A DNA stretch of 64,000 bases, taken from positions 1 to 64,000 of the forward strand of contig JAGHTU010000022.1 in the NCBI GenBank assembly GCA_018065185.1, in the 5' to 3' direction. Source of the stretch: Candidatus Equicola faecalis (GTDB lineage Bacteria; Bacteroidota; Bacteroidia; Bacteroidales; Bacteroidaceae). Below, piece after piece: positions 16,479 through 41,339 of this stretch; positions within the stretch are counted from its first letter, which is position 1; every line of letters begins with the position of its first letter. The translations under genes were made by a program, and so were the position numbers. The notes under the pieces are model-generated. The model was not told the origin of the DNA and ran no database searches. It saw only the letters and a program-made list of their open reading frames with translations.

Positions 16479-18302
16479 ATGACTATGAATTATCCGAAAA
16501 TTGGTATTCGTCCAACAATAGATGGACGTCAGGGGGGTATCCGTGAAGGACTCGAAGATAAAACCATGAGCCTTGCGAAGGCTGTGAAAGAGTTAATTGA
16601 GACGAACCTTTATAATGGTGATGGCTCAAAGGTGGAATGTGTTATTTCTGACACTACAATAGGTCGCGTTGCCGAAAGTGCAGCATGTGCTGAAAAGTTT
16701 GAGCGCGAAGGAGTAGGTTCCACTATCACCGTCACATCTTGTTGGTGTTATGGTTCTGAGACGATGGATATGAATCCTCATTACCCAAAAGCTGTTTGGG
16801 GATTCAATGGAACAGAACGTCCTGGAGCTGTATATCTTGCTGCTGTTCTCGCGGCTCATAATCAAAAAGGCTTACCGGCTTTTGGAATATATGGCCATGA
16901 TGTGCAGGACCTAGCAGACAATGCCATACCTACGGATGTGGCAGAGAAAATCCTGCGTTGGGCGCGTGCTGCACAGGCTGTTGCAACAATGCGTGGCAAG
17001 AGCTATCTGTCAATGGGTAACACCTGCATGGGTATCGCTGGTAGTATTGTTGATGCAAATTTCTTGCAGGATTATCTCGGCATGCGTACAGAGTATGTCG
17101 ATTTAGTGGAAATTCTTCGTCGTGTGGATTTCGGAATTTATGACCATGAGGAGTTCCAAAGGGCAATGGAATGGGTCAATAAATACTGCAAACCGCAGGA
17201 AGGGCATGATTATAATGAAGACCGCGCTCTGTTCCCTGGCACGCCAATGACGACCTTCAATGGTAAGGGTAAGGGCAAGAGCCGTGAAGAAAAAGATGCC
17301 GATTGGGAGTTTACGGTGAAGAATATGATGATTATCCGCGACTTGATGGAGGGCAATCCGCGACTTCTTGAAATGGGTTATAAGGAAGAAGCACTAGGGC
17401 ATAATGCAATATGTGGTGGAGTACAAGGGCAGCGCCAATGGACAGATTATAAGCCGAATTTCGATTTCCCAGAGTCGTTGATGTGTACGTCTTTCGACTG
17501 GAATGGTATTCGTGAGGCTAAAATATTAGCTACAGAGAATGATTTTTGTAATGGTATTTCAATGCTTTTCGGGCATTTGCTTACCAATCGTGGGGTTATG
17601 TTCAGTGACGTCCGTACTTATTGGAGTCCTGAAGCCGTTAAGCGTGTTACAGGAAAAGCTCCAGAAGGGCTGGCAGCTGGTGGCTTTATACATCTCATCA
17701 ACTCTGGTGCGACAACACTTGATGCAACAGGTGCTATGAGTGATGCCGAGGGAAAAGCGACAATAAAGGAACCATGGAATATGACCCAAACAGATGTCGA
17801 GGCATGTTTGAATGCTACAAATTGGATGCCTGCTGATCGTGATTATTTCCGTGGTGGTGGCTATTCTGCACATTTTGTGACGCGTGAAGGAATGCCTATG
17901 ACTATGATGCGCCTAAATATGGTGAAGGGACTTGGTCCGGTAATGCAGATTGCTGAAGGCTGGACTGCTGAACTGCCTAAGGAGCAACATGATATTTTGG
18001 ATAAACGCACAGACCCTACTTGGCCTACGACTTGGTTTGTTCCTCGCACAGATTCTTCGATTGACGCATTCAAGGATGTCTATAGTGTAATGAATAATTG
18101 GGGAGCCAATCATGGCGCAATAGCCTACGGACATATTGGTGCTGACCTCATAACATTATGCTCAATACTCCGTATTCCAGTTTGTATGCATAATGTGCCG
18201 GAAGAAAAAATCTTCCGCCCATCTGCATGGAATGCTTTCGGAATGGATAAGGAAGGTGCTGATTATCGTGCATGTCAGAATTTTGGTCCTATATATAAAT
18301 AA
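16479..18302 (+). CDS. fucI: L-fucose isomerase
   Basis: 607-aa aldose-ketose isomerase that converts L-fucose to L-fuculose (related enzymes also use D-arabinose). Diagnostic blocks are [19 protein letters not shown] at the N-terminus, [46 protein letters not shown] with acidic metal ligands, and the C-terminal [18 protein letters not shown] with the His. Length matches complete FucI. It follows the Wzc gene by 24 bp without a terminator and may share its transcript; a terminator separates it from the permease gene. No fuculokinase or fuculose-phosphate aldolase gene is adjacent. Confidence 0.95.
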
Positions 18303-18326
18303 TGTATATGATATTGTAACGTATGG

Positions 18327-18358
18327 AAGTCGGTGGTGTTGAGCACCGCCGACTTTTT
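18327..18358 (+). terminator. Terminator after fucI
   Basis: 12-bp stem AAGTCGGTGGTG/CACCGCCGACTT (one G-U), loop TTGAG, then TTTT; 25 bp after the fucI stop. Confidence 0.85.
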
Positions 18359-18394
18359 AGTTGATTATTAGTCATAATTAAAGAGAACGGAAAT

Positions 18395-19750
18395 ATGGAA
18401 AAAGTAATACAACGGAAGTATCTAATACCATTTATTCTTATTACATCTTGTTTTGCTTTGTGGGGTTTTGCGAATGATATTACAAATCCTATGGTTAAGG
18501 CATTCTCAAAGATTTTCAGGATGAGTGTTACGGAAGGTGCATTTGTACAAGTAGCTTTCTATGGTGGCTATTTCGCTATGGCGTTTCCTGCTGCTATGTT
18601 TATCAGGAAATATTCCTACAAGGCCGGTGTGCTTATGGGATTGGGGTTATATGCTGTTGGTGCTTTCCTCTTCTTTCCTGCGAAGATGGTTGGGGAATAT
18701 CCTTTCTTCCTGATAGCTTATTTTATACTGACTTGCGGATTGTCGTTTCTTGAAACAAGTTGTAATCCTTATATCCTATCCATGGGAAGCGAGGCGACTG
18801 CTACACGTCGTTTGAATATGGCGCAAAGTTTCAATCCTTGTGGCTCGGTATTGGGGATGTTTGTTGCTATGAACTTCATACAGAACCGTTTGAATCCTAT
18901 GAGCAGTGATGAACGGGCGTTGCTTGATAGCGGCCAGTTTGAAGCAATGAAACAGAGTGATCTCCAGATACTGATTACTCCTTATTTGATTATTGCTGCT
19001 GTTATCCTTGTAATGTTCTTCATAATGCTGTTTATGCGTATGCCAAAGAATAGTGACCAAAATCATGATATTAACTTTTTGCCAACACTGAAACGTATCT
19101 TTTCCCTGCCACGTTATCGTGAGGGTGTAATCGCGCAATTCTTCTATGTGGGTGCGCAGATAATGTGCTGGACTTTTATCATACAGTATGGAACACGTAT
19201 TCTCGTTGGTCAGATTCCTAATGATGTGGAGCAGTGCATTCTTAATGTGCTTGGAAATGATGCTGAGGGTATGCTTTCTGAACGTTCAGCCGAAGTACTC
19301 TCACAGGGGTATAACATTATGGCAATGCTTTTATTTATCTGCTCACGTTTCATCTGTACCTATCTTATGAAGTGGTTGAATCCAGGTTTGATGCTTTTGA
19401 TATTCGGTTCATTGGCTATGGTTCTAATTTGCGGTGTGATAGGCATAGATGGTCGCGGTGGTTTGTATTGCCTTGTTGGGGTAAGTGGGTGCATGTCACT
19501 AATGTTCCCGACCATTTATGGTATTGCTTTAGAGGGCATGGGGGATGATGCGAAATTTGGAGCAGCAGGTCTTATCATGGCGATTCTCGGTGGTTCTGTG
19601 CTTCCTCCTGTGCAGGCATTGGTTATTGATATGGGTAAAATCGGTGGATTCCCAGCAGTGAATCTGTCATTTGTCTTGCCTTTCGTTTGTTTTATCATTG
19701 TGGCAATTTACGGATATAGAATGTTTAGGTTTGCAAAGGTAAAAAAGTAG
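18395..19750 (+). CDS. fucP: L-fucose:H+ symporter (FucP, MFS)
   Basis: 451-aa, 12-helix major facilitator of the fucose permease group. Typical motifs are CFALWGFANDITNPMVKAF at the N-terminus (the Asp in a proton-coupling position), QVAFYGGYFAMAFPAAMFI, CGLSFLETSCNPYI and GVSGCMSLMFPTIYGIALEGMG. The family imports L-fucose with protons, and related members import galactose or glucose. Directly downstream of fucI it most likely supplies that enzyme. The central loop is somewhat long. Confidence 0.88.
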   Translation: MEKVIQRKYLIPFILITSCFALWGFANDITNPMVKAFSKIFRMSVTEGAFVQVAFYGGYFAMAFPAAMFIRKYSYKAGVLMGLGLYAVGAFLFFPAKMVGEYPFFLIAYFILTCGLSFLETSCNPYILSMGSEATATRRLNMAQSFNPCGSVLGMFVAMNFIQNRLNPMSSDERALLDSGQFEAMKQSDLQILITPYLIIAAVILVMFFIMLFMRMPKNSDQNHDINFLPTLKRIFSLPRYREGVIAQFFYVGAQIMCWTFIIQYGTRILVGQIPNDVEQCILNVLGNDAEGMLSERSAEVLSQGYNIMAMLLFICSRFICTYLMKWLNPGLMLLIFGSLAMVLICGVIGIDGRGGLYCLVGVSGCMSLMFPTIYGIALEGMGDDAKFGAAGLIMAILGGSVLPPVQALVIDMGKIGGFPAVNLSFVLPFVCFIIVAIYGYRMFRFAKVKK

Positions 19751-22530: not shown

Positions 22531-25500
22531 TTAATGTTCTTTCAGTAGTCTGTAATATTCCGTTGTGCCGAGCAGGAAGCAGCCTGTGCCGTAGTCTTCA
22601 AAGTCAGGACGACTAGTGTAGGTTACTGGCTGTCCGTCTTTTGGTTCTTTTCCCGTACCCTGCAACCATCCGATGAAGCCGTCTGGGTGTACCACCGTTT
22701 TCAATGCATCCCATGCCTTCTGGCATATAGGCATATATTTTTTTGCAGGGATGATACCTGTGCGTATTCCCCAACTCAGTCCGTAAAGGAAGAGGGACGT
22801 CCCACTTGTCTCCGGACCTCCGAATGTAGTAGGGGAGGCGAGGCTTACGTTCCAGAATCCGTCTTTACGCTGTAGCCGTGCAATAGCTCTTGTCATTGCG
22901 AGATAGTCTTTCACCAATTGTCGGCGTAAGGTGCTCTTTTCCGGCAGACGTTCTATTGTACGGCAATATGCTGCATATACCCATCCGTTGCCACGGCTCC
23001 AATAGGAATTATTTCCGTCTTCTTCCTTGTATGGAGGATTAAAGTCGGCATCGCGCCACCACAAGCCCTCTTTTGCATTCCACAGTCCGCCGTCTTCACT
23101 GTTACGTATCCACATATACAGTTTTTCTGCCTCGGTAGTGTATTTACTGTCACCTGTTATCTGTGACAGATGCACCATTGCCGGCATAGCCATCTGTATG
23201 GCATCTACCCACCACCAGTATTTCTTTTGTTTCATCTGTCCGTCAAAGTCCGCTTCGTCATCGCGTATCTGTGCATCAAAGTTGGCTATGACATTGCTTA
23301 TCATCTTTTCATCTTTTGTCATCTCATAACGCATGAGATAGGTCTGTGCACAACATTGGTCATCAGCATTGCGTGTGTTGACACCATTCCTTACGTCCCA
23401 TTTGTGGAAATTGCCCCATTCATCGACGTAGTCTATATAACTCTTTTGCGGAGCAATGGAATTAAGTGCCATCAAGCCTTCATAATAGACCCCACGTGTC
23501 CAAAGATTACTTGTCCGCTCGCGTTTGACAAAAGTCGGCTTTTTAGGGTCTGGACAGGTGCGCATGAAATATGCGTTTGTTCGTTGTGCTGCTTCAAGCA
23601 CTTCCTGTGCCTCGTTATTTCTGTATGTAATGATGCGTACATGTGAGTTTAGTCCTGAAGCCACAGGTTTCCAGTCGGTGTAGTCGCCTTCCTTGTAATA
23701 TAGTTTAACGAAGTTTATCTCATTGAACTTTCTCCATTTTACCCCTTTTCTGTCGAGGTCAGCAATGCGGTTTGCAGGTAGGTTGGTAACTTCTATACGA
23801 AGTGTGTTGTTGCCCTTTACGATAAACTTCGTGATGTCAAGTTCATAAGGTACGCACCATGCACAACCGGCATATTTTCCATTGACATATACGCGAGCTG
23901 TCTCGCGCACATCGCCAAGGTCAATGATTGTGTGTTCACCACGTTTTTGTCCTTCGCTCTTGAATGTCGTTTCATAGACGCCTGTTCCCATCGTGATATC
24001 TGCATTTGGCAAAGCTAGTCTTTCCCATGTCTTCAGCGTGTCCAGTTTCAGCATGCCATCTACCTTTGGTGTGCTCTCAATGAATGAGAAAGTCCATGGA
24101 GTGTTGGTCAAGTCAAGTGTTGATGCCTTTTCCTCGGTGGACCGACTGCTTAGAAGGCAGTTGCTCTCTTGCACCTCATTATAAGTTCTGATGATGACTG
24201 ATTCGCCAGAGCGCAAGTCGAGGAATATCTTGCCGTCTGTCACTTCTGCACGGGATATATCACCCGTAACAGGGTCGTGGAGGTAAGCATCCTGGAACGG
24301 AACAGACAGCTGTACGTAGTTCCTTACGTCTTTATCCGTAAGGTTGCTGATGAAGTAATGATAGCCTTTATCGTTGCTGCGTCTTATCATCTTCATTCCG
24401 TATGTGGTGCGTATATCTTCTGCTTTTGCCACGCGTGCCATAGCTTTCTTTTCGACACCATATATTATGGTTGCACCCTGCGACTTCAATGTTTCGATAT
24501 GATTGCGGCATTCATCGCTCATGCGTCCGCTTCCCGGGATGATGAGGGCACGATATGTAGTGCCGGCTTCTGTCATGAGAGTCCCGTTTTTGCCGACACT
24601 CACGCCCATTAGGTATTTCTCACTGATGTAATCGCAGTCGTAGCCGGCTTTGTCAATATCGAGAATACTCTTTATGAAGTCCGGTGCCAGTTTGCCCATA
24701 TCGTGTATCGAGAATTGCATAAGCAGTCCCTTTGTGCCTTTACCTTTCGGACGTGCCCACATGTCCCGTACAGGTAGGAATACGAGGAAATCATTGTCTG
24801 GCTTCCCCATCTGCAGGAAGCTCTGACAGCGTGTGATGTAATCGTCAAACGACTGTTGATCGCGCCACAAAGGATTTGTAGGACTCATATCTACTGATGC
24901 ATAGAATTTCCATCCCGGCCATGGGTCGTCTTTTGGAGAGTAGCATGTACCGTGGAAGAATACATGGTTCACCCCAGCGCAGAACAGCAGGTCAAGGTCT
25001 GGTTTGCATTGTGCGAAACTGGTGCGGAAATGCTCTGTGAGCCATGTGAATGTCTCGCTTGACGTTATCGGTTTGCCCATGATGTGTGCAGCCGATGCGG
25101 CATATTTCATCATACTGTAATCAGAGTCATTATGGCGTATCTTACCGCTATCAACCCTTAGTCCTTTGATGCCGAATTCCGACAGACCGAAACCTTCTAT
25201 CTCAGGGATATCCACTGCAGCATAGTTGTCTATAAGGTTGGCAGGTGAGCCATGCGCCTGATTGCGAGTCTTGGCACCATGGCTGTGTGCCCATGCTGTC
25301 CATTGCTCTGTGAAGTTGGAAAGCAGGAGGTCGCCAAGTGTTTCTCGATAGTCGCTCAACACTTTATAATCTTTGTCTTCTACGTCGCCAAGTAGTTCCG
25401 GCATGTGGTCCTCAAGACGGTATCCGCGCAGTCGGTAGAAATCTTCAAAGAAAGTCGGTGTCCAGTCAGCATTATACACTTCGTATGAGTCGTTGAAGAA

Positions 25501-26190
25501 TACCTTCGGATAAGGCACTCCACTTTCTGTGAAAGCTCTGTCAAAACGCTCTAGGTAATGCTTTACGGCAGTCTTGCTGAAATGGTCTATCACCCATCCT
25601 TCACCACCGGGTGCCGCGCGTTTCACCTTTTGTCCTGTACGTCCGGTATATACTGCTATGATGCGAAACATCTCTCCTTCAGGGTACACGAGTATGGTGT
25701 CCAGTTCGGCGAAACGTGCATCTTTCGGATTCCTCACGGAGAGGTCAATTTCTGTCAGACGGAAATGGCTCACCAGCGTGTCAACGCAAACCAGTTTACA
25801 TGCAGCCTCTTCGATTGGTACTTCCGGTCCGCCAAAAGGCCAACCTGTACCACAGTTCATATCCATCTGGATGTCGTACTGGTCGCCGAACATCTGGCAT
25901 GTGCGTAATGCTTCCATCCAGTCACGAGACAAGAATGGGATATTGTTCTTATCATTTCCTTTTACGCCGTATAGTGGCGTTATCTCCAATGTTCCTATAC
26001 CTTTTGAAGCATATTCTCCGATGTTCCATTGCAGGTCATTTGTCGTTACTGCACTTCCCAACCACCACCAGCGGCTTCCTGGTTTCATCTCCTGTGTCAC
26101 CTTTGGCCATGTCTGTGCCATACATTCATTTGTATGGATAAACGAATGAATCAAAAGTGTAAGAGTTAATAGAATGATAATTTTTTTCAT
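22531..26190 (-). CDS. Bimodular GH106 alpha-L-rhamnosidase / GH105 unsaturated rhamnogalacturonyl hydrolase
   Basis: 1219 aa. After a signal peptide ending ECMAQ, the first ~850 residues form a GH106-type module: PGSRWWWLGSAVTTND, MDMNCGTGWPFGGPEVP, VFFNDSYEVYNADW, SSETFTWLTEHFRTSF and a C-terminal beta-sandwich (GVYETTFKSEG, RVYVNGKYAG). From about 870 to the end lies a complete GH105 module (WTRGVYYEGLMAL, YWWWVDAIQMAMP with the likely catalytic Asp, YWSRGNGWVYAAY, PDFEDYGTGCFLL). GH106 removes terminal rhamnose and GH105 removes the unsaturated uronic acid left by lyases, so one protein could process rhamnogalacturonan oligosaccharides from both kinds of end. Second gene after the GH28 protein (47-bp gap), same operon. 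Confidence 0.9.
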   Translation of the reverse strand: MKKIIILLTLTLLIHSFIHTNECMAQTWPKVTQEMKPGSRWWWLGSAVTTNDLQWNIGEYASKGIGTLEITPLYGVKGNDKNNIPFLSRDWMEALRTCQMFGDQYDIQMDMNCGTGWPFGGPEVPIEEAACKLVCVDTLVSHFRLTEIDLSVRNPKDARFAELDTILVYPEGEMFRIIAVYTGRTGQKVKRAAPGGEGWVIDHFSKTAVKHYLERFDRAFTESGVPYPKVFFNDSYEVYNADWTPTFFEDFYRLRGYRLEDHMPELLGDVEDKDYKVLSDYRETLGDLLLSNFTEQWTAWAHSHGAKTRNQAHGSPANLIDNYAAVDIPEIEGFGLSEFGIKGLRVDSGKIRHNDSDYSMMKYAASAAHIMGKPITSSETFTWLTEHFRTSFAQCKPDLDLLFCAGVNHVFFHGTCYSPKDDPWPGWKFYASVDMSPTNPLWRDQQSFDDYITRCQSFLQMGKPDNDFLVFLPVRDMWARPKGKGTKGLLMQFSIHDMGKLAPDFIKSILDIDKAGYDCDYISEKYLMGVSVGKNGTLMTEAGTTYRALIIPGSGRMSDECRNHIETLKSQGATIIYGVEKKAMARVAKAEDIRTTYGMKMIRRSNDKGYHYFISNLTDKDVRNYVQLSVPFQDAYLHDPVTGDISRAEVTDGKIFLDLRSGESVIIRTYNEVQESNCLLSSRSTEEKASTLDLTNTPWTFSFIESTPKVDGMLKLDTLKTWERLALPNADITMGTGVYETTFKSEGQKRGEHTIIDLGDVRETARVYVNGKYAGCAWCVPYELDITKFIVKGNNTLRIEVTNLPANRIADLDRKGVKWRKFNEINFVKLYYKEGDYTDWKPVASGLNSHVRIITYRNNEAQEVLEAAQRTNAYFMRTCPDPKKPTFVKRERTSNLWTRGVYYEGLMALNSIAPQKSYIDYVDEWGNFHKWDVRNGVNTRNADDQCCAQTYLMRYEMTKDEKMISNVIANFDAQIRDDEADFDGQMKQKKYWWWVDAIQMAMPAMVHLSQITGDSKYTTEAEKLYMWIRNSEDGGLWNAKEGLWWRDADFNPPYKEEDGNNSYWSRGNGWVYAAYCRTIERLPEKSTLRRQLVKDYLAMTRAIARLQRKDGFWNVSLASPTTFGGPETSGTSLFLYGLSWGIRTGIIPAKKYMPICQKAWDALKTVVHPDGFIGWLQGTGKEPKDGQPVTYTSRPDFEDYGTGCFLLGTTEYYRLLKEH

Positions 26191-26237: not shown

Positions 26238-29200
26238 TTATTGCATTTTTTTCAACCCTTCCCATCTTACGCACCATGTGCCATCTTTCGGGAAACCATC
26301 GTATGTGCAGAGCATCGCAACAGCCGATAGTAATGCACCATTGCCAGGCAGGTATATGCGCAGGCGTCCATCCTGATAGTTGTGCCCATTCTGCAGGTAT
26401 GTGTTCTTTTGTGTGTCTGTGAGAAGTATGTTGAGTGCAGTCTGATATTCTCCCAGTCGTGTGGCAGCCATTGACATCATACCATAATCCCATCCCCAGG
26501 TGGTGAGCCAGTTCCAGTTGGAGACGACATCGGCAAGTGTCGCTCTCATCTTATCCTTGTCATATAGGTATGATGGTGGCAGACAACCACATGCACCGAG
26601 CACGGCAGGGTGGTCGCTGTGTGAAGCACGCTCGAAACTCATTTTTGCAAATTCTGCATCGCTACCGCTTGTGTTTTTCGGTTTATAATTCTTTGTCGGC
26701 ATTCCTGCGGTATATATACCACTACTCTCTGGCAGTAGTGAAATGTTTGGTATTATCTTTGCCCAGAGAGCATTCGGTTTCATTCCCTGACGCTCGCGCC
26801 AGCGCTGTGCCGTCAGTAGCGCATAATGACAATATGCAAGTTCGTAAGGTTGATTATATGCCATCTTCCACGACATACTTTCCTGCATGGCTGTTGCTCC
26901 GCGCACCTCATAGTGTTTCGTCTTTGGGTTGAATGACAGGAAGTCGGCTATGAAATCGGCTGTCTCTTCCACGTGCTGTGCATATTGTTTCAACACTCTG
27001 TCGGCTTCTCCTTTCGTTTCTGCACTTTGGTATAGTTCTTCGGCAAAATAGATATAATGCGGTTGTTGCCAGATGAGGAATGAACCCACGTTTGATGGTG
27101 CTTCGTCCGCCCATGGGTCGGTCATCTTCATCCATCGTATGCCCTTAAAACCTTGTCGAGCGGCAATCTCACGTGCCTTTGGATAAGCCACTTCATCATA
27201 CCATTGCATAGCCTTTTCCATCACTTCCTTATGTCCCCAGAGTGAAAAATCAAGAAGATGCCACCATGCCATTTCCAAATGAGGACGACCGAACCATGTG
27301 TTGTATGTCAGCCCCGACTCTTGTGGTGGCATTGATGTGCGACAGTTTGTGGCTTTTAGATATTGTGATAGCACTACTCGGCGTTCCAGTTCCTTGGCAC
27401 GTGCGTCGCTACATTGTGAGAAATCCACAATACCCCCTTGATTCCAGTAATTGCGCCATGCTGTTTCTGTCATGCCGATGGCTTTTTTATAGGCAGGGGC
27501 AGGCTTGATGTCGCGCGTCATACTGTATGTACAACTGAAAGCGATGGCATTTTCTTCAGTTGAGAGGGTGAAACAATGGGCAGACCGTTGACTTAGACGT
27601 GCCTCTCCTTCCCAGTCGATGCGCACGTAATATTGCGTACTGTCAATCTTGCGCTGAAGGATGGCGTATCTTGGACCACTCTCAATTATCGTTGTGGTGT
27701 GTGCAGATTCCTTTTCCCAATCGTTGCCATCGTCAGAATGTCTGCCGGAAGGGTAGGAGTAGCGGAAAGTCAGACTAGCCTGTCCTGTCTGAAAAAGATT
27801 CGTCAGCAAGAGTGCTGTGATACGGTCTTCATCAGGACTGCATAATGTGTAGGTCTCAACCTGACTTTCCTCTGCTTCGTACATTGATTCTATGCGCCCT
27901 TCCCAAAGGCGGTTTATCTGATGGATGTTCTTCAATTCGGTGATAGGAATTATTTCACCCTGTTTGTTTTTTAGTTCGATGCCTATGCAACCTAAGTTTA
28001 GACGGTGCGGGTTCTCGCGGAAATAGGCGGTGGCGGCAACTTCCCGTTCTGTTGCTCCGCTTTTCGTCTTTTTCTCTACTGCATAGATGCTCTCCCGTCC
28101 GTCGTGTATGGTGTATGATTGTTGTGTCTCCTGCTCTGTCAACGAGAGTGTGTTGGGTGCGGAGTGCCACCCCCATTCAGACTGTGCGCAGAGTGGAACA
28201 CCGTTTGCGTAATATTCTGGATAACTCTGCAGTCCCGTCACATCCACTGTCGTGGCAAAATGGCCGTTGCCCACTGTCAGGGATGACAGTGGGTCGGCTT
28301 TTGTTATTATGGGATTGTTGCGGTCAAGTATCTCTTCACGGTTCAAGGCTGTCAGAGATGTGTCATATCCCATCATCTCCATTTCCAGTGATGCCCAAAT
28401 GAACGGACCGATGCCCTTGGCATCATTGTCGCGCACTTCCTCGCTCATATAATACTCAAAACTCCCGTCACGGCGTGGGTTGTTCTCCGGACCGAGTCCG
28501 GATACGGCGCAACAATTTGTCAGCGATAGGGTTTTGTCTGCGTTGACCTTGATAAAGTTCTTTATCAGTCCGTTATATGCTTCGATGCCTTTCTGTCGGT
28601 AGCTCTCATCAAGATACCCCAGACGTGCACCTTTCAGCAGACAGTATGTGAACATCGATGAGGCTGTCGCTTCAAGGTAGTTGTGTTCATCCTTTACGTC
28701 CAGCACGTCATACCATGCTTTTGATTCCGGGTCTTGATATTTCATCAGGGCTTTCATCGCCTGTTGGAACAGGGCGATTACTTCACCACGGCGTGCATAG
28801 TCCTGTGGCAGAGCATCGAGCACCTCTATCATTGCCATGACATACCATCCCATGGCGCGTGCCCATGAGTGTTGTGAAAGACCAGTCTCCTTGTCTGCCC
28901 AGAACATGACCTTGCGCTCATCCCATGCGTGCTTCCATAGTCCTGTCTTTGCGTCGTATGTGCGTTTGCCTGTTTCTATTATCTGGTCAACTGCATCATC
29001 ATAATATTTCTTTACGTTCTCTTTCTTTCCTTTCAGCATCGGTGCAGAAAGGGTGTAAAAGGGCAATCCCATGTAGATGCCGTCAAGCCATACCTGATAG
29101 GCATAAATCTTCTTATGATGCCACGGACCGGCTTTCGTGCGTGGTTGGTTCTGCAGTTGACGGAAAAACGTCTGTAGGGCTTCCTTCTCTCCCTGCTGTG

Positions 29201-30893
29201 GTGAGAGTTGGTACATGCGGTAGATGAAGCGTGCCGGCCGGATATTGTCGAGGTTGAATGTCTCGTAACTGTAGTTCTCGGTCTTGCCGTCCTTGGCAAT
29301 CATCCTCTCGGGATATGACTTCAAGTATTTCAGTATCTCCTCATTCCCGTATTTCAGGTATGTGTCGAGCATGGATTCTAGTTCGATGCCCACGACATAG
29401 CCCCATTTGGGACGTGTGGCAAAGTCGAGCATATAGCTCTTAGGGCAACGCTTCATTTCTGAGAATGTCATCCATTCGGAGTAGTTCTTGAAGGGCTTCT
29501 CCGTCAGTACAAGACTTCCGTTTATCATCACGTTTTCAAACCGTACGTTCTCCATCTTGCCACGTAGTAGGTTTCCTTTTTCCGTCACTCCATTCCACTG
29601 GCAGTTCTTTACATGTATGTTCTGCACGTTGCACGACTCTTTTAGTCCATCGATGTAAGCGCCGTATTTACTCTTGTTGCAGTTCACATTTTCAAGATAT
29701 ACGTTCTTCACAGTAGGTATGTGTCCGCGCTCTGCCTGTTCGTTGATTTCATAGACGAGGTTTATCTTTAGTACGGCTTCCTTGCATTGCCCCACGCGGA
29801 TGTTGCGCACGTAGATGCCGTCTGTCACACCGCCACGACAGGTGTTTGTCTTGAGTCTTATCACGCGCTCCAGTTCTGGCGAGTCCATATCGCAGTCCTC
29901 CACAAAGATGTTTCCTGCTCCGCCGGAAATCTCGCTACCGATGACCACTCCACCATGACCGTTCTCCATCTTGCATCCGCGCACGATGATGTTTTTTGAT
30001 GCCATGTTGCGTGTGCGTCCATCGCGGTTACGTCCGCTCTTGATGGCTATGCAGTCGTCGCCAGTATTGAAGTGGCAGTTCTCAATCAGTACGCCATCAC
30101 AGCTCTCAGGGTCGCACCCATCACCATTAGGACCGTCATTATCCACGCGCACGCCTCTCACCGTCACGTTCCTGCTCTTCAGGGGGTGAAGCACCCAAAA
30201 CGGGGAGTTTAGGAATGTGGCGTTCTCAATAAGGATGCCGTCACACTGGTTGAAACATACGAATTGTGGGCGCAGACCATGTCCTTTACCGAAACGGCGC
30301 TCGGAAATGGGTGTCCCATTGTCGCTCATCTTCAGTAGGGTGTTGCGTGAACCACGGCTCTGTGCTTCCGGTGTCGCGTCCGTACAACCGAAACGCCCTG
30401 CTCCACACATAGGCCACCAAGTCTGTCTTGAGCCTTGCCCGTCAAACACGCCTTCGCCTGTCACGGCGATGTCGGTCTCCTGATATGCGTATATCAGTGG
30501 AGAGTAGTTCCATAGGTCAAGTCCTTCCCATGAAGTTTCAACGAGAGGGTAGAGATCTGGCTCAAAAGCAAACTTCACCAAAGCCCCTTTCTCTGCCACG
30601 AGCATGACATGGCTTTTCATGCGTATTGCACCTGTCTGCCATTCACCGGCAGGGATAATAACTCTTCCACCACCTTTCTTCGACATCTTCTCGATGGCCT
30701 TGTTTATGGCTTTCTGGTTCTGGGCAGCGGTGTTGGTGGTCTTCGCACCATATTTCGTGATGCTGACGCTACGTGTTGGGAACTGTGGCTGGCGTATGGA
30801 TGCCTCCACCTTCTTGTACTCCGTGTCCCAGATACCCGCTGATGCCGTAAGACTGATGAGGAGTGTTAATGCTAATAGGATTGTTTTTTTCAT
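26238..30893 (-). CDS. Trimodular pectinase: GH28 - GH105 - unassigned six-hairpin-like module
   Basis: 1551 aa with signal peptide MKKTILLALTLLISLTASA. Residues ~40-470: GH28 polygalacturonase/rhamnogalacturonase beta-helix with catalytic NGDGCDPES, NTGDDCIAIKSG, GHGGVVIGSE and VIRLKTN. Residues ~485-848: GH105 with AYQVWLDGIYMGLPFY (Asp ~604), HSWARAMGWYVMAM and NYLEATASSMFTYCL. Residues ~852-1551: a third module opening DPLSSLTVGNGHFATTVD, with ESGLTYNTWFGRPHLEMAWW and LTTWGWDYGMMSMAATR, which looks like an (alpha/alpha)6 glycosidase of the six-hairpin superfamily that I cannot place in a family. GH28 cuts the backbone, GH105 trims unsaturated ends; the third activity is unknown. First gene of the operon. 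Confidence 0.9.
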   Translation of the reverse strand: MKKTILLALTLLISLTASAGIWDTEYKKVEASIRQPQFPTRSVSITKYGAKTTNTAAQNQKAINKAIEKMSKKGGGRVIIPAGEWQTGAIRMKSHVMLVAEKGALVKFAFEPDLYPLVETSWEGLDLWNYSPLIYAYQETDIAVTGEGVFDGQGSRQTWWPMCGAGRFGCTDATPEAQSRGSRNTLLKMSDNGTPISERRFGKGHGLRPQFVCFNQCDGILIENATFLNSPFWVLHPLKSRNVTVRGVRVDNDGPNGDGCDPESCDGVLIENCHFNTGDDCIAIKSGRNRDGRTRNMASKNIIVRGCKMENGHGGVVIGSEISGGAGNIFVEDCDMDSPELERVIRLKTNTCRGGVTDGIYVRNIRVGQCKEAVLKINLVYEINEQAERGHIPTVKNVYLENVNCNKSKYGAYIDGLKESCNVQNIHVKNCQWNGVTEKGNLLRGKMENVRFENVMINGSLVLTEKPFKNYSEWMTFSEMKRCPKSYMLDFATRPKWGYVVGIELESMLDTYLKYGNEEILKYLKSYPERMIAKDGKTENYSYETFNLDNIRPARFIYRMYQLSPQQGEKEALQTFFRQLQNQPRTKAGPWHHKKIYAYQVWLDGIYMGLPFYTLSAPMLKGKKENVKKYYDDAVDQIIETGKRTYDAKTGLWKHAWDERKVMFWADKETGLSQHSWARAMGWYVMAMIEVLDALPQDYARRGEVIALFQQAMKALMKYQDPESKAWYDVLDVKDEHNYLEATASSMFTYCLLKGARLGYLDESYRQKGIEAYNGLIKNFIKVNADKTLSLTNCCAVSGLGPENNPRRDGSFEYYMSEEVRDNDAKGIGPFIWASLEMEMMGYDTSLTALNREEILDRNNPIITKADPLSSLTVGNGHFATTVDVTGLQSYPEYYANGVPLCAQSEWGWHSAPNTLSLTEQETQQSYTIHDGRESIYAVEKKTKSGATEREVAATAYFRENPHRLNLGCIGIELKNKQGEIIPITELKNIHQINRLWEGRIESMYEAEESQVETYTLCSPDEDRITALLLTNLFQTGQASLTFRYSYPSGRHSDDGNDWEKESAHTTTIIESGPRYAILQRKIDSTQYYVRIDWEGEARLSQRSAHCFTLSTEENAIAFSCTYSMTRDIKPAPAYKKAIGMTETAWRNYWNQGGIVDFSQCSDARAKELERRVVLSQYLKATNCRTSMPPQESGLTYNTWFGRPHLEMAWWHLLDFSLWGHKEVMEKAMQWYDEVAYPKAREIAARQGFKGIRWMKMTDPWADEAPSNVGSFLIWQQPHYIYFAEELYQSAETKGEADRVLKQYAQHVEETADFIADFLSFNPKTKHYEVRGATAMQESMSWKMAYNQPYELAYCHYALLTAQRWRERQGMKPNALWAKIIPNISLLPESSGIYTAGMPTKNYKPKNTSGSDAEFAKMSFERASHSDHPAVLGACGCLPPSYLYDKDKMRATLADVVSNWNWLTTWGWDYGMMSMAATRLGEYQTALNILLTDTQKNTYLQNGHNYQDGRLRIYLPGNGALLSAVAMLCTYDGFPKDGTWCVRWEGLKKMQ

Positions 30894-36845: not shown

Positions 36846-37561
36846 ATGAAAGAAGAGATGTCTTCTAACGCCTGTTCTAAACTTGACGGAGTCAATGTCG
36901 TCATAAAGAATGACCAGACCGTCCCTATGAACGATTACAATGCAGTCCTATACCTTCAGACCGACAATCTGCTACAGGATACTATTGCTATTATCGATTC
37001 AGCTCGCGACAGTGCATACCGTTCTGTCAATACGTTGATGGTGATTCGCAACTGGCAGTTGGGGCATCGCATCTCCGTCGAAAACTTCAATGGGCAAAAG
37101 CGGGCAGAATATGGTAAAAGGGTTATGGCACAGCTTGCTGCCGACTTGACTAATCGCTACGGACGGGGCTTTGATACGTCTAATCTTTACAAGTTTCTTG
37201 ACTTCTATCGCTCTTTCCCACAGATTTTAGACACGGCGAGTCTAAAATCCATACAACTTACATGGTCTCACTATCGTATCCTTCTCCAAGAACACGATTC
37301 GAAGGCTAGGCAGTGGTACGAAAACGAAGCCATCACGCAGATGTGGAGTGCGCGCACCCTGCAACGCAACATTTCTTCACAGTACTATCAGCGCATGCTC
37401 TTAACACAGCATAGTGATTTGGTAGAGCAAGAGATGCATCAGCTAACGACTCCGCTTCAAAACCAACCAAATATAAGCTCATTCTTCCGTCTGAAGAAGA
37501 ACTTCGTGCAGAAATACAAGCACAAAAGAACATTTATCTATTGCAACATACATCTCCTTAA
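36846..37561 (+). pseudogene. Broken DUF1016 (YhcG-like) nuclease gene
   Basis: Residues 30-190 of the frame match the DUF1016 N-terminal domain (IIDSARDSAYRSVNTLMVIR, NWQLGHRI, AQLAADLTNRYGRGFD, SNLYKFLDFYRSFP, LTWSHYRILLQ, WYENEA). The catalytic PD-(D/E)XK core that should follow is absent. At 37472-37561, in another frame, YKLILPSEEELRAEIQAQKN and a stop (37559-37561) form the C-terminal end of the same family. So the middle was deleted and the frame shifted. In its original frame the broken head runs on without a stop into the next real gene. Confidence 0.8.
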
Positions 37562-37655
37562 CAGCCAGAATCTCACAAAAAGTCATTGGCTTTGCGAGGA
37601 ACAAAAAACATTAAACATTAGACAACTAAACAATATAAACAAAAATCAAAACATT

Positions 37656-40600
37656 ATGAAAAAGAAAATTACATTATTGAAAGTCTTTATGACTTTATGC
37701 TTACTCCTCGTGAGCTTCGGCAATGCGTGGGGAGCGGATTATGAGGAATTATTTAGCATTGCTTCAGATGACGTTGTAAGTAATACTAGTTACGCAAAGT
37801 ACGAAAAGACTGTTGATGGTCGAGATTGGATAATTACTTTCGGTGGTAACAGCAAGTCTGTAGGAACCAACTCAGGTAATAGAAGTAAGTGCAACTTGAG
37901 TAGTTTCTCCAAATATGCCGTTTCTCCTGTAACAACTTCTGAAGTTGCATCTGCTTTTGTCTCAACAACTAGCATTTCAGATGTTTCAAAAATATCTTAT
38001 ACTTTCAATGGAGGAAGTAATCAGACAAATACGAAAGTATATTTAATCTATTCGTCAGATGGTAACACATTTAGTCAGATGAAATTGGCAAGTGTAACTC
38101 AAGGTGCTAAAATATCTTCAGGCACAGCATACGAATTTACTAAATGTTCAGGATATTTTGGTTTGCTATTTGAGGCAACTAATTCATCTGGAAACTGGAG
38201 AATTGACGCTGTAAATATTACATTCTACAAAGAAGGCGACACTCCTTCCAAAACTCTTAAGTCTATCGCCATTTCAGGCACTCCTAAAAAGACGACATAC
38301 GAAGCTGGTGAAGAATTTGATCCTGCAGGATTGACAGTAACAGGTACATACGATGATGAAAGTCAAGCAGAAATTACCTCTGGTATCACATGGAACTCAA
38401 CTCCTAACCCTCTTACCGCAGGAACAACTTCAGTTAGCGTAAAGGCAACAGTTGGCAATATTGAAAGTGATGCTTATCAAGTTAATATTACCGTTTTGGC
38501 TTTAGAAGGTGATGAGCTTACTACAACAAGTGTTGGTTCTCCAAGTTCATACACTACTTGGGCAGATAAGACTGGCTCCCAGAGGGTGGCTAAATATGCT
38601 GGTCAATCAGCAGGTGGTAACAGCTATATTCAAATGAGAGCTCTGTCTCCTTCTGGAATCGTTAGTACGACATCTGGTGGAAACATTCGTAAGATTAAAG
38701 TTGATTGGAACTCTTCTACTGCGAGTAACCGTAGCCTAAAAATATATGGATCTAACACTGCTTATACAGGTACTAATGGGGCTGCCGAATTATATGACGA
38801 AAACGCAAAAGGAACAGAACTCGGTACTATTTCCAATGGGACAACCGAATTGACAATAAGTGGCGATTATGCATACGTTGGTGTGCTCCCCGATGGTGGA
38901 GCAATGTATTTGAATTCCATTACTTTCGTTTGGGAAGAGCCTAAAAAACTTGATCATATCTCTGTAACTGGCACTCCAAAAGATTTCTTCGTTGGTGATG
39001 AGTTTAACCACGACGGAATGACTGTAACTGCTTATTATGATGATGAAACTAATGAAGATGTAACAGCTTCCGCTACTTTCACAGGTTATGATATGGCTAC
39101 TGCTGGCGAACAAGACGTTACTGTTACATATAATGAGAAAACAGCATCTTACAAAATCAACGTTCAAGCAGTTGTTCTTACTTCTGTTGTGGTTTCAGGC
39201 ACACCAACAAAGACAGAATACTTTGTGGGCGAATCCTTCAATCCTGCAGGTTTAACTGTTACTGGTCATTATAACAATGGTACGCAAGCTACAATTACTG
39301 AAGGAATCACTTGGACGATAACTCCTGAAACGTTTACAGAAACAACACAGAACTCTGTTAATGTTAAGGCAACTGTATCAGAAATCACAAGTGATGCATT
39401 CGAAGTTACAGGTTTGACAGTTACTTCTCCTGCTTCTTTATACACACTTACTGCAGAACCTGCTGAAGGCGGTAGTTATACTGTAACAGTCGGAGAAGAT
39501 CCTGCTGTTGAGGTTACAGCAGAAGCAAAGCAATTTATGGTTACAGAAGGAACAGTCATTGTGGTAGAGGCTACTGCTAACGAACATTACAAATTAAACG
39601 AAAGCAAACTATTTGAAGGAAAATATGCAGATGAGACACCAATTACTTTCGATAACACAGGTGTAGCAAAGAAAAAGCAGTTTACTTACGGAACAGCTGA
39701 TGCTACCATCACAGCAAAATTCCTTCAGATGTATGCTGTAAACATTGATAAAAATATTGAACATGGAACTGTCGTTGCTGACCCTGTAGAAAATACTCCT
39801 ACTTCTTTCATTACACTGACCCTTACACCAGATGCACATTATCATTTTGAGAGTGTAACGGTGAAGGATAAAAATGGTGGCGACATTGCATTAGAGGGAG
39901 AACCGATAACTACTGAAGAAGGCATCACAACTGCAAAATTCAGGATGCCTGCTGCTGAGGACACAAAGGGTGCTGTATCAGTTACAGCCACATTCGCAGA
40001 AGATGCAAAATACACAGTTACATTCAGCGTAAATGGTGAAAATACAACAAGCGATGCTAACTATGCTGGTGAGCCTGTTGAGTTCCCGACAGTTTCTCCT
40101 ATTGCAGGTTACACATTCATGGGATGGACAGACGCACCTATCATAGGCACTCAACAAACCGCTCCAGAGTATGTAACAGGTGCAACTTATCCTGACAACA
40201 ACGATAAAGTTTTCTATGCAGTGTTTGCAAAGAAAGAAGGAGAAGATAAATATGTGAAGGTTACTTCTGCTCCTACAGATTGGCGTGGTAAATATCTGAT
40301 TGTTTACGAAGATGGAAAAGTTGCATTTGATGGAAGTCTTGCCGAGCTTGATGCTGTAAGTAATACGAAATCAGTTACAATCTCAAATAATGTTATTGCG
40401 TCAAGTACAGAAATGGATGCTATTGCATTTACGGTAGCATATAAAACTGGAAGCACTAATGTTTATAGTTTGAAGTCTGCAAGTGGAAAATACATTTCAG
40501 GTACTACAACTACTGCAAAAGCAACCAATGGCTTGAAACAAGATGATACAGATGCAAACTATGAAATCAGTTTCAATGGCACAACTATTGAAAGTAAATC

Positions 40601-41339
40601 AAGCGACCAACAAATGGTATTGAAATATAACAAAAATAGCGGTCAAACTCGTTTCCGTTTCTACAAGAATGGTCAAGAAGATATTGCTCTCTACAAGAAA
40701 CAAGAAGCCACTTACTCCAACTACACAACGACTGTTACTACTACCGCCACGATGTCAATCACATCAGCCAAGTGGTCAACATTCATCGCTCCATTTGATG
40801 TAGAAATACCAGAGGGCGTTGAGGCTTATACAGTAACTGCAACTGAAGATGCTCTGGTATATACACCAGTAGAAACAACAATAACAGCATGTACGCCGGT
40901 TGTTCTTTTCAAAGATGTTACCGAAACGTATAAACAGGATTTCGTTGGCGTAGATAATGCTGAAGAAAGAACTTTCCAGACGGAAAGCCTTGTAGGTACA
41001 CTTGATGCTCTTGCAAAAGGTGAAGTTCCTACAACAACGGAAAGTGATGTACCTGTATATCTGTTGCAGAAGCAAAACGAAAAAGTAGGATTCTTCAAGT
41101 TGGACCCTACTAAGCAATATTCTCTCAATGCTAACCGTGCTTATCTTGTAGGTGTTGCAACAGCAAACGCAAAGGCATACTATGGATTTGACGATAATGA
41201 CCCGACAGGCATCAATAATTTGCGTGGTGAGCGGTGGAACGTGCCGAGAGAAGGCATCTTTGACTTGTCTGGTCGCAAACTCTCTGCTCCGCAGAAGGGC
41301 GTCAACATTATCAATGGTATTAAGGTGATTGTTAAATAA
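37656..41339 (+). CDS. Large secreted Ig-like (Big_3) repeat protein with T9SS-like C-terminus
   Basis: 1227 aa from ATG 37656, chosen because MKKKITLLKVFMTLCLLL to AWGA is a complete signal peptide. Then an all-beta domain (about 30-190), three Big_3 Ig-like repeats (each opening I.vSGTP.k..Y..GE.F.p.GLTVT, about 200-590), beta-rich repeats (TLTAEPAEGGSYTVTV), an InlB-like module with GYTFMGWTDAPI, and a C-terminal region ending GIFDLSGRKLSAPQKGVNII and KVIVK. That ending resembles T9SS-type sorting domains of Prevotella. Probably a surface adhesin or carbohydrate-binding protein. The preceding broken DUF1016 gene is in frame with it and must not be merged. Confidence 0.85.
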   Translation: MKKKITLLKVFMTLCLLLVSFGNAWGADYEELFSIASDDVVSNTSYAKYEKTVDGRDWIITFGGNSKSVGTNSGNRSKCNLSSFSKYAVSPVTTSEVASAFVSTTSISDVSKISYTFNGGSNQTNTKVYLIYSSDGNTFSQMKLASVTQGAKISSGTAYEFTKCSGYFGLLFEATNSSGNWRIDAVNITFYKEGDTPSKTLKSIAISGTPKKTTYEAGEEFDPAGLTVTGTYDDESQAEITSGITWNSTPNPLTAGTTSVSVKATVGNIESDAYQVNITVLALEGDELTTTSVGSPSSYTTWADKTGSQRVAKYAGQSAGGNSYIQMRALSPSGIVSTTSGGNIRKIKVDWNSSTASNRSLKIYGSNTAYTGTNGAAELYDENAKGTELGTISNGTTELTISGDYAYVGVLPDGGAMYLNSITFVWEEPKKLDHISVTGTPKDFFVGDEFNHDGMTVTAYYDDETNEDVTASATFTGYDMATAGEQDVTVTYNEKTASYKINVQAVVLTSVVVSGTPTKTEYFVGESFNPAGLTVTGHYNNGTQATITEGITWTITPETFTETTQNSVNVKATVSEITSDAFEVTGLTVTSPASLYTLTAEPAEGGSYTVTVGEDPAVEVTAEAKQFMVTEGTVIVVEATANEHYKLNESKLFEGKYADETPITFDNTGVAKKKQFTYGTADATITAKFLQMYAVNIDKNIEHGTVVADPVENTPTSFITLTLTPDAHYHFESVTVKDKNGGDIALEGEPITTEEGITTAKFRMPAAEDTKGAVSVTATFAEDAKYTVTFSVNGENTTSDANYAGEPVEFPTVSPIAGYTFMGWTDAPIIGTQQTAPEYVTGATYPDNNDKVFYAVFAKKEGEDKYVKVTSAPTDWRGKYLIVYEDGKVAFDGSLAELDAVSNTKSVTISNNVIASSTEMDAIAFTVAYKTGSTNVYSLKSASGKYISGTTTTAKATNGLKQDDTDANYEISFNGTTIESKSSDQQMVLKYNKNSGQTRFRFYKNGQEDIALYKKQEATYSNYTTTVTTTATMSITSAKWSTFIAPFDVEIPEGVEAYTVTATEDALVYTPVETTITACTPVVLFKDVTETYKQDFVGVDNAEERTFQTESLVGTLDALAKGEVPTTTESDVPVYLLQKQNEKVGFFKLDPTKQYSLNANRAYLVGVATANAKAYYGFDDNDPTGINNLRGERWNVPREGIFDLSGRKLSAPQKGVNIINGIKVIVK

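Follow-up and report, generated by a model that had tools for sequence, protein, structure and literature searches.

Among the described enzymes closest to the subject of this report is FjGH65A, a kojibiose hydrolase of glycoside hydrolase (GH) family GH65. According to the excerpted text of its description (PMC8626586), Glu472 is the catalytic acid and Glu616 the base, and the E616Q replacement killed activity; Trp343, Asp344, Lys538 and Gln539 form the −1 glucose site, the first two being conserved across the GH65 enzymes compared there; Trp391, Glu392 and Thr407 line the +1 site; and GH65 phosphorylases hold phosphate with two serines, a histidine and a lysine. In Segatella copri the gene NQ544_01830, a “tandem GH28-GH105” in the excerpt of PMC11784079, goes up on homogalacturonan and rhamnogalacturonan I (RG-I) together with a PL1 gene. 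Here we analyse a protein in which GH28 and GH105 modules are joined to a third module (module 3), encoded in a 64,000-nucleotide stretch of Candidatus Equicola faecalis (contig JAGHTU010000022.1, positions 1 to 64,000; hereafter the window). On balance, we favour a reading in which module 3, with a predicted GH65-like fold, is likely an inverting exo-alpha-glycosidase that trims RG-I fragments alongside the GH28 and GH105 modules.

Layout of the fusion and placement of module 3

The gene is one open reading frame (ORF) of 1551 codons with an ATG start and a stop codon at its end, laid out as follows.

26238..30893, reverse strand: whole ORF, 1551 amino acids (aa), with a signal peptide-like start, GH28, GH105 and the GH65-like module 3
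30837..30893, reverse strand: residues 1-19, resembling a signal peptide (judged by eye)
29514..30803, reverse strand: GH28 module, residues 31-460 (Pfam, PDB sequence search, motifs)
28371..29480, reverse strand: GH105 module, residues 472-841 (Pfam, PDB sequence search, alignment with YteR)
26241..28340, reverse strand: module 3, residues 852-1551, beta-sandwich and (alpha/alpha)6, GH65-like (predicted fold, profile similarity)

The original prediction, made from the sequence alone, had described GH28, GH105 and a third module of about 700 residues; this layout is confirmed, residues 852-1551 being exactly 700, and the three motifs it quoted from the third module all occur in the translation. 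On sequence grounds modules 1 and 2 are a GH28 and a GH105 enzyme. The first scores 89.9 bits in Pfam (residues 208-430; cut-off 22.9), its PDB sequence match over residues 31-460 is the exo-polygalacturonase 3jur, and it contains all of what we take to be the GH28 catalytic motif set: NGDGCD (256), GDDC (278), GHGG (312) and RLK (346). Its closest NCBIfam model is the BT4155 alpha-galacturonidase of the RG-I pathway, at 296 bits under a cut-off of 800. The second reaches 309 bits on the GH88/105 model (residues 472-841; cut-off 26.6), its best PDB sequence matches are the YteR-type GH105 entries 4wu0 (494-840) and 1nc5 (493-840), and Asp604 of its WLDG motif aligns with the catalytic Asp of YteR (1nc5) that is replaced by Asn in entry 2gh4. 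YteR-type GH105 enzymes strip unsaturated galacturonic acid off rhamnogalacturonan fragments.

Searches with residues 852-1551 returned nothing in Pfam or among PDB sequences to an E-value of 10, and nothing in NCBIfam. Among 30 family members scanned, no single Pfam model matched more than eight: PF03632 was touched by five at E <= 1 and PF22124 by one (E 0.006), and the NCBIfam kojibiose hydrolase model NF053734 was touched by seven. When ten members were rescored, four touched PF03632, one of them (L008, 31.7 bits) above the 27-bit cut-off, and the best score on NF053734 was 37 bits against a cut-off of 800. Structure prediction gave a beta-sandwich, a linker and an (alpha/alpha)6 domain, the overall fold of GH65; the (alpha/alpha)6 glycosidase fold foreseen by the original prediction was thus borne out, with a beta-sandwich in front of it. 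The top PDB matches of both predicted models were GH65/GH95-type enzymes, aligned over almost the full length with the beta-sandwich first, and a polysaccharide lyase reading was dropped on these grounds. GH65 is the nearest family by both fold and profile, the hhalign match to GH95 (68.8%, E 4.5e-5) being weaker than that to GH65. In a tree that included GH65 sequences from Bacteroidota only, and in which long branches meet, module 3 formed its own clade (Shimodaira–Hasegawa-like approximate likelihood ratio test, 99), sister to the sampled GH65 hydrolases and phosphorylases. The third module, which the original prediction could not place in any GH family, is placed, from sequence comparison and predicted structure, as a divergent relative of GH65; it lacks defining features of that family, and for this reason we do not file it as GH65.

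Catalytic positions of module 3

The positions that bear on catalysis were taken from alignments and are the following.

27318..27320, reverse strand: Glu1192 (module 341), invariant, adjoining the position of the GH65 phosphorylase phosphate-site Lys; candidate base
27273..27281, reverse strand: His1205-x-Glu1207 (module 354-356, PHLE), invariant; candidate base or sugar-binding residues
27126..27128, reverse strand: Lys1256 (module 405), invariant, at the +1-subsite Trp391 of the GH65 hydrolase; predicted contact to the aglycone carboxylate
26880..26882, reverse strand: Glu1338 (module 487), predicted general acid, counterpart of FjGH65A Glu472
26487..26489, reverse strand: Asp1469 (module 618, WGWD), invariant; candidate relocated base
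26373..26381, reverse strand: Asn1505-Gln1507 (module 654-656), site of the GH65 hydrolase base Glu616, where a conserved acid is absent

Four MAFFT alignments of module 3 with different partner sets agreed in placing FjGH65A Glu472 on module Glu487 (Glu1338) and Glu616 on module Gln656 (Gln1507). They also put Trp391 on Lys405 (Lys1256), Glu392 on Met406 and the phosphate-binding serine pair of the phosphorylases on Trp615-Gly616; across the module-3 family the phosphate-site Ser, Ser, His and Lys are Trp, Gly, Tyr and Ser/Thr, and the site is absent. Trp343/Asp344 fell on Leu355/Glu356 in all four, in a register that may be off by perhaps two residues. In a partly redundant alignment of 392 sequences (30 from alignment A1, 354 database hits and eight plasmid-borne proteins), Glu487, Glu356, Glu341, Asp618, His354, Lys405 and His577 were invariant, and position 656 was Gln in all but two sequences (390 of 392), which had Leu and Asp respectively. 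The same seven residues were unchanged in all 49 representatives obtained by removing rows shorter than 500 residues and then selecting greedily under 70% identity, among which no position of module 646-667 had an acidic fraction above 0.45 when a conserved acid was sought there.

As far as alignment can tell, then, module 3 is a protein in which the acid position of GH65 is kept and both the base and the phosphate site are lost, and we infer a hydrolase whose base would lie elsewhere. Glu341, Glu356 and Asp618 are candidates for it: all three are invariant, and in the alignments they lie next to GH65 residues lining the −1 or the phosphate/water site. The original prediction would have failed on a confident match to a characterised family with an unrelated substrate, or on the lack of an acidic catalytic pair in the predicted structure. 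Neither outcome arose: GH65 enzymes do act on alpha-glucosides, but the window's module has no Pfam or NCBIfam match and no GH65 base, and beside the general acid it keeps Glu1192, Glu1207 and Asp1469, invariant in the sequences compared.

Distribution and genomic context

Module 3 is common. Used alone as query it matched 4237 of 7998 proteins scored (E <= 0.001); a search for longer proteins with module 3 found 850 among 7990, and a distant member as query matched 7990 of 7999, a set that may overlap with the 4237. Names and per-protein details rest on the best 120 matches of each search. Among the best 120 of the 850, 113 have both GH105 and GH28 Pfam domains and the remaining seven are shorter, with GH105 only. 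Three-module relatives are numerous, with 52-98% identity over module 3 among the matches listed, and the ORF is therefore not a chance frame. Of 15 genome loci compared, 13 encode all three modules in a single open frame; at L029 the contig begins inside the gene, and at L036 (7451-12111, a Prevotella metagenome-assembled genome) the fusion is split directly after GH105 into frames of 894 and 651 aa. Among relatives of Prevotella the three-module fusion is widespread. The names given with the matches listed include Prevotella for the window-module queries, and Rhodothermales, Longimicrobiaceae and Gemmatimonadaceae for the distant member; some distant copies carry the public labels “glycoside hydrolase family 65” or “protein-glucosylgalactosylhydroxylysine glucosidase” (PGGHG). 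Plasmid records at 32.7-35.8% identity come from Asticcacaulis (four), Arthrobacter (two), Paenarthrobacter, Nonomuraea and Streptomyces (one each).

The gene following the fusion, 47 bp downstream, is a probable partner.

22531..26190, reverse strand: GH106 + GH105 fusion, 1219 aa (Pfam, NCBIfam)

Its GH106 part resembles the BT4145-like alpha-L-rhamnosidase in NCBIfam, at 1225 bits against a cut-off of 1300. The genome to which the window belongs (2.1 Mb, 89% complete) has a single copy of module 3; elsewhere in it there are two PL11 genes and one more gene each for GH106 (the second) and GH105 (the third). Outside the window, a 1531-aa ORF (L125:3661-8256; contig C10, 111660-116255) has an N-terminal PL11 rhamnogalacturonan lyase and, near residue 704, PATR repeats of the autotransporter type, and is followed by a GH2 gene; a further RG-I-like cluster (L126; contig C62, 22000-32000) comprises a GH106 gene (1029 aa), a GH2 gene and a SASA-type esterase.

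Many stand-alone Bacteroidota copies of module 3 lie in similar company. Among 18 such loci a PL11 gene is a neighbour in six and a DUF4450 protein in six, and GDSL esterases, GH28, GH105, GH106 and BT4151/BT4156-like GH2 recur; thirteen have at least one of PL11, GH105, GH28, GH106, GH78, GDSL esterase or BT4151/BT4156-like GH2, a count that includes L051 (GH78 alone) and L045 (GH88/105 from a separate profile search). Outside this phylum, the four Asticcacaulis plasmid loci, which may represent one inherited locus, all place the module close to a DUF4450 gene and a pectate lyase, and three also have GH88 and galB. The DUF4450 protein, of about 1050-1250 aa, was noted at Bacteroidota loci L039, L040, L044, L046, L050 and L056 and at Asticcacaulis loci L117, L118, L121 and L123; in the one Bacteroidota copy that was scanned, part of a six-hairpin signature of the rhamnosidase type is present as well, and no paper on DUF4450 was found in the open-licence literature searched.

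Co-occurrence was counted in 296 Bacteroidota genomes, of which 19 (the window's genome included) have a full-length module 3; a 58-residue hit with a stop inside (G203) was excluded, and the statistics ignore shared ancestry. PL11 exceeded its cut-off in 12 of the 19 module-3 genomes and 6 of the 277 others (odds ratio 77), GH106 in 16 and 28 (odds ratio 47), and GH88/105 (E <= 0.001) in 17 and 84. The GH92 control was also enriched (13/19 versus 95/277; odds ratio 4.2, p 0.004), far less than PL11 and GH106. Leaving out the window's genome gave PL11 in 11/18 and GH106 in 15/18, and among GH92-positive genomes only, PL11 was present in 9/13 with module 3 and 5/95 without. The link to rhamnogalacturonan drawn by the original prediction is supported by gene neighbourhoods, by PL11 and GH106 co-occurrence and by Asticcacaulis, a member of another phylum; its step from association to activity keeps its conditional standing, and in Bacteroidota the case for RG-I as the substrate is one of context only.

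Three other features of the window were noted by the way. The gene upstream of the fusion reads by eye as a glutamate dehydrogenase. An L-fucose isomerase followed by a major facilitator superfamily (MFS) transporter (16479-19750, forward strand) is separated from the pectin fusions by a few kb. A 1497-aa ORF (36846-41339, forward strand) resembles two genes read through as one: its N-terminal piece is of DUF1016 type, and at about residue 271 begins what looks like a secreted protein, with a signal peptide-like start and Big_3 repeats.

Proposed activity and comparison with known systems

Module 3 probably works like an inverting alpha-glycosidase of clan GH-L. In the mechanism we propose, an upstream lyase would leave an unsaturated uronic acid that GH105 removes, galacturonic acid would be taken off by GH28, and module 3 would remove an alpha-linked sugar, the leading guesses being L-rhamnose or galacturonic acid, letting GH28 and GH105 proceed. 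Water would be activated by Glu1192, Glu1207 or Asp1469 in place of the GH65 base, and Lys1256 at +1 would hold the carboxylate of a galacturonic-acid aglycone; this lysine suggests a uronic-acid aglycone, compatible with Rha-alpha-1,4-GalA. More boldly, and with confidence somewhat short of even, module 3 may found a new GH family sister to GH65, in which the base has moved from the last barrel loop to another invariant pocket acid (one of the same three) and an alpha-glucosidase scaffold has been turned into an exo-enzyme for the RG-I backbone; in Prevotella it would complete, together with GH28 and GH105, an exo-acting machine within a single polypeptide. Naming the activity would close a gap in the annotation of pectin breakdown, and the lost GH65 base makes it possible to test cleanly in what way enzymes of clan GH-L can rebuild their catalytic machinery.

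Several observations weigh against the exo-alpha-glycosidase proposal. Gln at the base position is the same change as the E616Q that abolished FjGH65A activity (PMC8626586, excerpt), and activity therefore needs a relocated base, which is a proposal only. Lys538 and Gln539 find no stable partner in module 3, the PHLE alignment is unstable by about two residues, hhalign placing its gaps there differently, and the confidence of the module-3 model is lowest at module 342-345. The adjacent gene already encodes a GH106 rhamnosidase, which weakens the rhamnose guess. As to context, 7 of the 19 module-3 genomes have no PL11, and the enrichment of the GH92 control means that part of the co-occurrence reflects genome richness; five of the 18 stand-alone loci (L049, L052, L053, L054 and L055) have none of the counted pectin families, a Pfam scan of nine neighbours there finding no pectin family. 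At all three annotated actinobacterial loci (two with the same protein, one from Streptomyces), where plasmid gene tables are incomplete, no pectin gene was seen; these are the only loci in the count, the Nonomuraea record being unannotated there and one Arthrobacter record left out. The neighbours are an MFS transporter with GH3, or GH97, and the family may therefore be wider than pectin. Finally, module 3 has no characterised close relative, its function is predicted from sequence and model, and the open-licence literature searched gave no function for it, no title or opening of an abstract there naming the module.

Some of these points would suit a simpler reading of module 3 as a divergent GH65 enzyme whose substrates would be alpha-glucosides or alpha-galactosides found alongside pectin, and not the RG-I backbone. 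GH65 is the nearest family, GH65- and PGGHG-type names stand on some distant records, and the actinobacterial copies adjoin GH3 or GH97 and not pectinases. We nevertheless consider this unlikely, given that the −1 Trp343/Asp344 align with Leu355/Glu356 (with the register uncertainty noted above), Lys538/Gln539 lack a stable match, Glu616 is missing, and PL11 and GH106 co-occur far above the control. It seems equally doubtful that module 3 is an alpha-L-rhamnosidase for non-reducing-end Rha-alpha-1,4-GalA, giving one polypeptide with three exo-enzymes for the RG-I backbone: the +1 lysine is compatible with that linkage, but GH106 lies 47 bp downstream and occurs in 16 of the 19 module-3 genomes, so that the activity is already supplied. 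A catalytically dead module that merely binds pectin would account for Gln at the base site, as in inactive E616Q; we judge it highly improbable, since one would not expect seven residues to stay unchanged in 49 representatives of a dead enzyme. A glycoside phosphorylase has the least credit with us, close to none. GH65 contains many phosphorylases and the hydrolase base is absent, but the protein opens with a signal peptide-like stretch, and extracytoplasmic phosphorolysis would be out of the ordinary; this reading was rejected on the missing phosphate-site Ser, Ser, His and Lys.

Returning to the exo-alpha-glycosidase proposal, module 3 shares with FjGH65A (7fe3; PMC8626586, excerpt) the N-terminal beta-sandwich and (alpha/alpha)6 domain over nearly its whole length and the position of the general acid, and both proteins come from Bacteroidota and start with a signal peptide, or in the fusion a signal peptide-like stretch. 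They differ in that identity is 13-14%, the glucose-site Trp/Asp seem unmatched, the Lys/Gln have no stable match, the +1 Trp/Glu are Lys/Met and the base is Gln. In human PGGHG (GH65; 9sd4-9sd8), the deposited mutants point to E430 and E574 as catalytic, and the second, traced via related GH65 hydrolases, has no acidic counterpart in module 3. The GH95 alpha-1,2-L-fucosidases and the GH139 rhamnogalacturonan II fucosidase BT984 are also near it but seem to differ, GH95 by its weaker profile match; the Asp of IDGN, presumably the GH95 catalytic Asp, falls on module Pro665 in the hhalign alignment. Two further papers, PMC11107044 and PMC4769552, do not feature module 3 in their excerpted text. 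The RG-I pathway of B. thetaiotaomicron (BT4145-BT4183) has GH28, GH105, GH106, PL11, esterase and GH2 enzymes, as found around the module-3 family, and names no GH65-like enzyme in the excerpt of PMC8002723. The term “GH28-GH105” occurs in one paper of the open-licence literature searched. NQ544_01830 of S. copri has the same first two modules; a third is not mentioned in the excerpt of PMC11784079, and we suspect that this protein has the same architecture as the fusion described here.
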